DNA of 60,422 nt from the NCBI RefSeq assembly GCF_000336935.1, contig NZ_AOME01000056.1:1-60422 (forward strand). The letters run 5' to 3'. Each line of letters opens with the position of its first letter. The stretch's first letter is position 1. Both the position numbers and the translations under genes were made by a program. The notes below the pieces were generated by a model. That model saw only the letters and a list, made by a program, of their open reading frames with translations. It was not told the origin of the DNA and did no database searches. Below are positions 38,234 through 60,308 of the stretch, piece after piece. The stretch comes from Halococcus salifodinae DSM 8989. Its GTDB lineage: Archaea; Halobacteriota; Halobacteria; Halobacteriales; Halococcaceae.

Positions 38234-38308
38234 TGCTCCGGCAGGGATTCGAACCCTGGTCATTGCCGTGAGAGGGCAATATGATTGGCCGGACTACACC
38301 ACCGGAGC
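38234..38308 (-). tRNA. tRNA-Glu (CTC)
   Basis: The minus strand folds as a complete 75-base tRNA: acceptor stem GCTCCGG/CCGGAGC with discriminator A, D-arm with GTGTAGTCCGGCC, anticodon stem TTGCC/GGCAA with loop CTCTCAC, anticodon CTC for Glu, and T-arm CCAGGGTTCGAATCCCTG. CCA is not encoded. No intron is seen. A T-run follows its 3' end at about 38218-38222, the probable terminator. Confidence 0.97.
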
Positions 38309-57656: not shown

Positions 57657-58637
57657 CTACAAAGATTGGCGAACCGCCCACCGCTTGAGTGTCTGTGCCG
57701 GTCGGTAGGTGTATCGACCACCGAGGGAGACCAGCCAGTAAACGTATCCCTTTGGATTGGTCGGATCGTACACCAGTGCTCGGGTCAACAGCCGCCGTGC
57801 GAGCGCATATCGGTCGCGTGAGAGGGCCGCGTATCCGAGTTGGAACAGCAGGCGACCACGGCGTCGGCGCTTGAACCATCGCCCGTACTCTGCCGCAAGT
57901 GAATCAAACTTGTCACGGAACATTGGATACGTCTCAGTGAGTTTTGTTTCGAGGTCGTCACTGATCTGTTCGTGAGTAGCGTTGTGCCGGACGATTAGGG
58001 GTTCGGGAACCGCCGTGAACGCTGCGTGTTCCGACAGTCGAATATAGTATTCCCAGTCCTGCCAGCTTGGAAATCGCTCATCGAGAAGCCCGGTTTGCTC
58101 AATCGTTTCGGCATCGACAAGGAGCACCGAAAACGAACCCGCGAAATTGTGGAGCAGTAGCTTCTTGGTAACATCGCCATCGACTCGTGGGGAGTCCACT
58201 CCATTTGTTTGGCCTTTGGAATCGACGTTCTCGATACCCGTATAAACGACGCCGACGTCCTCATCTGCACACTTGTAGGCGTCGAGTTGTAACGATAGCT
58301 TCTGTGGTCGCCATTCGTCGTCATCATCGAGAAATGCAACGAATGCGCCAGATGCTTTCTCAATGCCCGTATTTCTGGCACCGCTTCCACCATGGCTTTT
58401 TTCATGTTGAATATATATGATGCGGTCATCGTCATATTCGTCAACGACTGACTCCGTGGCATCCGTGGACGCATCGTCAACGACGATTACCTCGATATTC
58501 TCGTGGGTCTGTTCCAATACACTATCAAGTGCTCGCTGGAGAACATCCGCCCGGTTGTGGGTCGGAAGCACCACGCTGACGGTATCCGTGTCCGTTCTAT
58601 GATTGACGTCTGGTTTGGATTGTATACTGTTTACCAT
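57657..58637 (-). CDS. family 2 glycosyltransferase
   Basis: A 326-residue GT2 enzyme. VSVVLPTHNRADVLQRALDS begins the GT-A fold, SGARNTGIEKASGAFVAFLD holds the second motif, and the DDDD segment of FLDDDDEW binds metal and nucleotide sugar. GLLDERFPSWQDWEYYIRLS is the acceptor-side ED-like motif. It ends with a helical region rich in Arg and Leu. It converges on the neighbouring GT2 gene with 13 bases between stops. Confidence 0.9.
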   Translation of the reverse strand: MVNSIQSKPDVNHRTDTDTVSVVLPTHNRADVLQRALDSVLEQTHENIEVIVVDDASTDATESVVDEYDDDRIIYIQHEKSHGGSGARNTGIEKASGAFVAFLDDDDEWRPQKLSLQLDAYKCADEDVGVVYTGIENVDSKGQTNGVDSPRVDGDVTKKLLLHNFAGSFSVLLVDAETIEQTGLLDERFPSWQDWEYYIRLSEHAAFTAVPEPLIVRHNATHEQISDDLETKLTETYPMFRDKFDSLAAEYGRWFKRRRRGRLLFQLGYAALSRDRYALARRLLTRALVYDPTNPKGYVYWLVSLGGRYTYRPAQTLKRWAVRQSL

Positions 58638-58706
58638 AAATCAGCTACAACACTCCTCTGGATTGGTTCTATCGGTAGTTACAGGCCATGACTCGCTAGC
58701 AGGAAA

Positions 58707-58716
58707 AACTAGGGTG
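58707..58716. repeat. direct repeat flanking the MITE, left copy
   Basis: AACTAGGGTG, matching AACTAGGATG at 58885-58894 with one difference. The likely target duplication. Confidence 0.65.
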
Positions 58717-58884
58717 CATCCGTCTTTAGCTAAGCGGCTCTCTGCTCGCAGGGCCGCCAGCTGTAGACAGAGCATCTGCTTTACCAAGGACTCTCACGCC
58801 GGATTTGAGCGAAGCCCTGATGAACCTTTCTCAGACAGCATCCCGTTGCTGTCTTGCGGTTCGATTCTTAGCTAAAGACGAATG
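58717..58884. mobile_element. 168-bp MITE-like element
   Basis: The ends are an 18-bp inverted repeat with one mismatch: CATCCGTCTTTAGCTAAG at 58717-58734 and CTTAGCTAAAGACGAATG at 58867-58884. A near-perfect 10-bp direct repeat flanks it (58707-58716 and 58885-58894). The interior has no long frame. It fills much of the ~400-base gap between the GT2 gene and the polymerase gene; the rest of that gap is AT-rich with nothing recognised. It could be a deleted copy of a transposon with the same ends. Confidence 0.75.
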
Positions 58885-58894
58885 AACTAGGATG
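58885..58894. repeat. direct repeat flanking the MITE, right copy
   Basis: AACTAGGATG, the partner of 58707-58716. Confidence 0.65.
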
Positions 58895-59042: not shown

Positions 59043-60308
59043 ATGTATTTTACAAGCTTTAGTATGAAAGATACAGTAATGCGCGCCGACACGTTTTGGA
59101 TCGGTCTGCTCCTCCTCGCGTCATCGCTATCTGTCACTACTCTTGTCCCAGAAATGGTCGGATATGTCGTGATTCTTGCGGTTTATGTAATTTTTGTTGG
59201 CATACTTTTCATTACTGATCAGTTTGCAGTCACTTATCACTGGGCAGTTGTTCCAATGGTAGTGTTAATATGGATAGTATTCATGCTCACAACAGCACTC
59301 GACCCTACTAGTGCAGGAATCATTCGCCTTGGCGCGTTCGTCGTGATTACCGGTATCAATCTCTTCGTCGTTCCGGCAGTTATCGACCGAGCCGCCCTCC
59401 ATGACGTTATTGCCTACACGGCCGGAGTGTCTGTACTTATAGGTCTACCTACAGTTGTTTTTGGGGCATACCAGATTGCTGGACTCACTATCACGCCGTG
59501 GCGAACAACCTATGAACTCTTCGACGTCTCTTTGAACAATCTGCGGTCGGTGTTTAGCAACCCGAACACCCTAACGGCGTTCTCAGCTTTGGGAGTGGTT
59601 GCTGCTGGAGCGAGCTACATCCGTTCACGCACCCCGATAACTGCAGGATTAGTCGGATTGAACGCTCTCGGAGCCTATCTCGCGGGCGGACGAGCGGGGC
59701 TGCTAGCACTCATTGTCGCAGGTGTACTGTACGTCGTCTACCGGTTTTTCGGACGTAGTGCGCTGACAGGTTTCGTGATTGCCGGCGCGCTCGCAGTATT
59801 AGCGGGGTTTGCGATGGTTTTCGGCATTATTCCTGGACCGAGTGCTGCTATGTATGTCGATCTCAGCAGTCGTCGGACTATTTGGACAGCAGCGTACGAA
59901 GCGATACTTAATCGACCCGCAATTGGGTGGGGTCCTGGAAAGGACAAGATGGTGTTAGCGAGATATATTGCCGAGTCGAATTCTGTACGAGGAACTCACA
60001 ACAGCTACATCCGAATGTTTCTAGTCGGCGGAATCCTCGGTGGCGGGGCATATCTTACCATCACTATTAGCTTAATGATTATTGGTTTATGGAATGCCCG
60101 CTCTGAGACGCTATTTACGTTTCTTTTGCTTATAATGTTCTTTATCATACAGGTTTTTGAGGGAATGACGATATTTGGCCTCAGCTTACTCTCAACGATG
60201 GGGGCTTTCTTTGTTGGCTACGTACAGTCCTCATCTGACACGAGTAAATTTGTGAAAATTAATATTCATAGGGGGATTTCCGGATTGAGAAAGATGATCC
60301 GACACTAA
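59043..60308 (+). CDS. O-antigen ligase/polymerase-like membrane protein
   Basis: A 421-residue protein with about 11 hydrophobic segments of the Wzy/WaaL type. The family's large loop holds FSNPNTLTAFSALG near residue 175 and, after GGRAGLLAL, the conserved R-x-x-x-W-x-A-x-x-x-I-x-x-x-P-x-x-G-W-G-P-G stretch (about residues 280-300) followed by THNSYIRMFL. These match ligase motifs for joining lipid-linked glycans. Starts at 59043 or the internal ATG at 59064 are both possible. It completes the glycan set with flippase and transferases. Confidence 0.85.
   Translation: MYFTSFSMKDTVMRADTFWIGLLLLASSLSVTTLVPEMVGYVVILAVYVIFVGILFITDQFAVTYHWAVVPMVVLIWIVFMLTTALDPTSAGIIRLGAFVVITGINLFVVPAVIDRAALHDVIAYTAGVSVLIGLPTVVFGAYQIAGLTITPWRTTYELFDVSLNNLRSVFSNPNTLTAFSALGVVAAGASYIRSRTPITAGLVGLNALGAYLAGGRAGLLALIVAGVLYVVYRFFGRSALTGFVIAGALAVLAGFAMVFGIIPGPSAAMYVDLSSRRTIWTAAYEAILNRPAIGWGPGKDKMVLARYIAESNSVRGTHNSYIRMFLVGGILGGGAYLTITISLMIIGLWNARSETLFTFLLLIMFFIIQVFEGMTIFGLSLLSTMGAFFVGYVQSSSDTSKFVKINIHRGISGLRKMIRH

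Follow-up and report, generated by a model that had tools for sequence, protein, structure and literature searches.

The window analysed here, a stretch of 60,422 nucleotides from Halococcus salifodinae DSM 8989, contains a 168-bp segment that is bounded by inverted repeats and lies among cell-surface glycan genes. What is this segment, and what would move it if it is mobile? A first-pass annotation, prepared from the letters of the window, proposed a non-autonomous transposon. We conclude that the segment is very probably a non-autonomous MITE of the ISH8 subgroup of the IS4 family.

The segment and its setting

Contig C56, to which the window belongs, is one of the 109 contigs of a 4.2-Mb genome. 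The segment is located inside a 405-bp divergent intergenic region. This region is bordered by a family 2 glycosyltransferase gene on the minus strand (57657-58637) and, on the plus strand, by a gene for a Wzy_C O-antigen ligase/polymerase-like protein (59043-60308). Further glycosyltransferase, pyruvyl-transferase, and flippase genes lie alongside, and the label "glycan cluster" given in the first-pass annotation is right. The segment is 70-80 bp upstream of the glycosyltransferase start codon, and an effect on the expression of this gene is possible.

The features of the segment are summarized in Table 1. The near-exact reverse-complementary 18-bp ends and the flanking direct repeats, AACTAGG[G/A]TG, were both found as annotated. 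The single ORF of at least 60 aa that overlaps the segment, at 58603-58875 with a TTG start, only passes through it; no gene is encoded inside, and the description "gene-free" holds. The length (under approximately 500 bp), the lack of a transposase, and the terminal inverted repeats are those of a MITE.

Table 1. Coordinates of the 168-bp element and its parts in the window.
Feature	Position	Strand	Remarks
Whole element	58717..58884		168 bp
Left target-site duplication, AACTAGGGTG	58707..58716		10 bp; 9/10 identical to 58885-58894
Left 18-bp terminal inverted repeat, CATCCGTCTTTAGCTAAG	58717..58734	+	Identical to the ISH8-type IS ends at C27, C68, and C102
Core	58735..58847		Common to the C2, C105, and QS_4_69_34 copies; not in the parent IS elements
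37-bp right end	58848..58884	-	Homologous to the transposase-upstream end of ISH8-type parents, 78-84% identity
Right 18-bp terminal inverted repeat	58867..58884	-	Reverse complement of the left repeat, 17/18, one mismatch
Right target-site duplication, AACTAGGATG	58885..58894		9/10 vs the left 10-mer

A chance inverted repeat was rejected. At up to 3 mismatches, chance predicts 0.01 occurrences of the 18-mer in the window, and two were observed; the 4.2-Mb genome contains 15 such sites, compared with 1 for the reversed control. Two 10-mers 178 bp apart and identical at 9/10 or better occurred at 3 of 60232 window positions, including the MITE site. Even when 4 mismatches were allowed, the 18-mer had no other site in the window; therefore, these ends belong to no transposase in the window, in agreement with the annotation.

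Among the matches listed from the 392 genomes of the order, those to the two flanking genes were separate, and none except the window spanned the insertion point with both genes; an empty site was not found among them. Mobile elements are abundant at this end of the glycan cluster. An IS66-family transposase gene (G000:C56:60898-62229; L117:599-1930) is encoded just past the window, approximately 2 kb beyond the MITE; a second Wzy_C gene comes next, and then a sulfatase-family gene.

Candidate parents in the same genome

The first-pass annotation predicted a parent with the same ends and duplications of approximately 10 bp, and such elements are present. Two intact IS elements, at C27:6442-7845 (1404 bp) and C68:76351-77753 (1403 bp), have MITE-type ends and exact 10-bp duplications. 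The ends of the segment are thus shared with autonomous transposons, and its target-site duplication has the length of theirs. Both transposase ORFs are open (447 and 436 aa, respectively), score 285 and 272 bits against the NCBIfam IS4 family model NF033592, for which the cut-off is 115, match Pfam DDE_Tnp_1, and contain the YREK motif, Y-x2-R-x3-E-x6-K. The available text of "IS4 family goes genomic" (PMC2266710) describes the ISH8 subgroup by a length of 1400-1800 bp, CAT ends, and 10-bp repeats; these traits and a YREK transposase were all found in the C27 and C68 elements. In a tblastn search of plasmids, the closest match was an IS4 transposase of Halococcus dombrowskii (91% aa identity), while the named relatives ISH8E and ISHma1 matched at 72-73%.

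A third element of this type, at C28, has 1368 bp between paired end sites and an exact 10-bp duplication, and its transposase is split over two frames. A further broken copy extends over C102 and C103, next to the apparent end of a different mobile element. The string GCGTGTCATAGAA, which borders these broken copies and also the MITE copy on C2 (at about 30882; loci L019, L022, and L024), is probably the end of another insertion element. The IS4-type elements at C100 and C82 are intact, but they are more distant and have other ends; they were not counted as parents.

The C27 and C68 elements are likely to be the mobilising parents of the MITE. We propose that a DDE transposase from a parent of this type would bind the 18-bp ends and perhaps also the shared subterminal stretch of approximately 37 bp, excise the MITE, and insert it at a staggered 10-bp cut.

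Copies of the core and rival explanations

A MITE is expected to occur in several copies with a shared core and different flanks. The annotation advised a search of the genome for copies, and this search was productive. A relative of the whole element is present at C2:30705-30875 (171 bp, 73% identity), a truncated copy is present on C105 (77% identity over 97 bp), and the related MAG QS_4_69_34 carries a 168-bp copy (74% identity) with a 10/10 duplication, GACGTTCGCC (strand of locus L061). Together with the window element on C56, these copies share the core in different flanks. They also exclude one of the two outcomes that the annotation named as refutations, namely, that no second copy of the ends exists. 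Against shuffled cores, the core alignment scored +11.3 sd for C2 and +9.8 sd for QS_4_69_34. The copy number is low: two full copies and one truncated copy of the core in the own genome, which is few for a MITE.

The C2 copy has a degraded left end and no target duplication (4/10). On its right side, a sequence resembling the end of another mobile element lies within about 6 bp, and this flank may therefore have been rebuilt. The truncated copy (L023:3811-3938) lies near genes that resemble those of NADH dehydrogenase, as named by eye.

The DNA search matched the element in 40 of 392 order genomes, and a sequence model did so in 65 of 392. Among the matches listed for other genomes, nearly all are confined to about positions 105-168 of the element, and the parental-type right end alone accounts for the large number of matches. 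These searches scored the best two candidates per genome by DNA and seven with the model, and copies may be missed at this depth. Weak model matches at G009, G002, and G334 were rejected because no element of this kind with paired ends was apparent on reading. A blastn search of plasmids with the element and its flanks gave short matches only, and in the best 20 of 32 records the match was always to the right end.

The segment may be considered a decayed remnant of a single ISH8-type IS that arose by internal deletion and has no MITE family of its own. Both of its ends are of the IS type, and blastn aligned positions 132-168 with the C27, C68, and H. dombrowskii IS elements and positions 133-168 with ISH8B. 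However, positions 21-131 have no meaningful blastn match to three IS elements of the own genome (best E, 0.62), and the core recurs in three other places, in two of them at full length. We rejected this explanation on the core comparison and regard it as very unlikely. It is hardly credible that the site is a structured RNA or regulatory palindrome belonging to the divergent promoter region: two divergent glycan genes flank it and its folding is better than that of shuffled sequences (RNA z, -4.5), partly through its own inverted repeat, but its ends are the same as IS ends present across the genome, it has a 10-bp duplication, copies with different flanks and target duplications are present at unrelated loci, the segment has no Rfam match, and no terminator-like site was found at it. 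ARAGORN identified only a tRNA-Glu (38234-38308) in the window.

Based on these comparisons, we regard the MITE as an old, low-copy, probably ISH8-mobilised element, similar to ISH2 of Halobacterium. The divergence of its copies (70-77% identity) and the decayed duplication suggest that the insertion is not recent.

Other elements with ISH8-type ends and known systems

ISH8-type ends that match those of the MITE also bound a 1069-bp element without a transposase on C105 (G000:C105:176-1244; L023:176-1244), which has a 9/10 10-bp duplication and encodes a CPBP/Rce1-like protease ORF of 305 aa (Pfam PF02517). Judged by these features, it is a mobile insertion cassette with ISH8-type ends. It is located approximately 2.6 kb from the truncated MITE copy. 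CPBP homologues at five other loci (L071-L075) had no ISH8-type ends within the stretches examined. In the available text of PMC2266710 (2008), the IS231 subgroup is reported to carry passenger genes, which had not yet been reported for the other IS4 subgroups.

When order genomes were scanned with a paired-end pattern that allows element lengths of about 137-197 bp, 5 of 392 matched, compared with 1 of 392 for the control. These were the genome of the window, QS_4_69_34 (G014), Haloarcula japonica (G273, with the same sequence as L060), G223, and G102. A stricter pattern over genome contigs retained two loci, in H. japonica and QS_4_69_34, with the record of the window itself perhaps left out. 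In viral contigs, the strict paired-end pattern had no matches; a relaxed pattern had 12, which were taken as chance, none extending beyond 9 pattern bases into CAT-type ends.

The elements of H. japonica (L060, 179 bp), G223 (172 bp), and G102 (169 bp) resemble the window MITE in their size class, ends, and exact 10-bp duplications. However, their cores differ and have no detectable relation to the window core; those of G223 and G102 aligned with it no better than shuffled sequences (z of about 1). The first ~52 bp are common to the G223 and G102 elements. At the right terminus of the G223 element (L112), GACGATTAA is present in place of GACGAATG, and the 10-bp duplication is exact nonetheless, which suggests that the terminus varies or that the ends are used imprecisely. 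Because of the shift in this altered terminus, an ungapped comparison over 18 bp gives 2/18.

The lengths of these small elements cluster at 168-179 bp. ISH8-type transposases may repeatedly select partners of this size with unrelated cores (the window, H. japonica, and G223/G102 types); the cause would then be a geometric optimum in the size of the transposition complex, not common descent. We consider this unlikely because the pattern limited the range that was seen, some of the copies are homologous, and other sizes also move, such as ISH2 (521 bp) and the CPBP cassette (1069 bp).

In the library searched, PMC10264941 was the only paper with both ISH8 and MITE. Nothing relevant was found among the papers listed for MITE and Halococcus together, as judged by title and abstract, and a search with the end sequences returned only an unrelated malaria paper.

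The MITE, intact parents, and a passenger cassette in one genome form a matched set with which the end requirements of an ISH8-type transposase may be tested, and the MITE documents the traffic of mobile elements at a cluster of cell-surface glycan genes. The ISH8-subgroup elements (C27 and C68, and ISH8B of Halobacterium) share with the MITE their ends, the 10-bp duplication, and approximately 37 bp of one subterminal region. The C27 and C68 elements differ from it in their length (1403-1404 bp) and in having a transposase. As far as described in the available text of PMC3119063, MITEs of Haloquadratum are unrelated in sequence to the transposons that mobilise them except at the termini, and the window MITE is much like them in this respect.

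The closest known system is ISH2 of Halobacterium salinarum, which is described in the accessible part of PMC10264941 as a MITE with ISH8-related termini that is mobilised in trans by the ISH8 transposase. Similar to the window MITE, it is described as having no transposase gene, ISH8-like ends, and a 10-bp target duplication, and its ends on pNRC100 match those of the window MITE over 18-20 bp. In contrast, ISH2 measures 521 bp between its ends here (the 531 bp printed in the paper appears to count one copy of the repeat), its core has no similarity to the window core, and it carries a small ORF that is reported as expressed in the available texts of PMC3119063 and PMC10134880. The window MITE is otherwise ordinary, and it adds to the ISH8-mobilised MITEs a family that is much smaller than ISH2.
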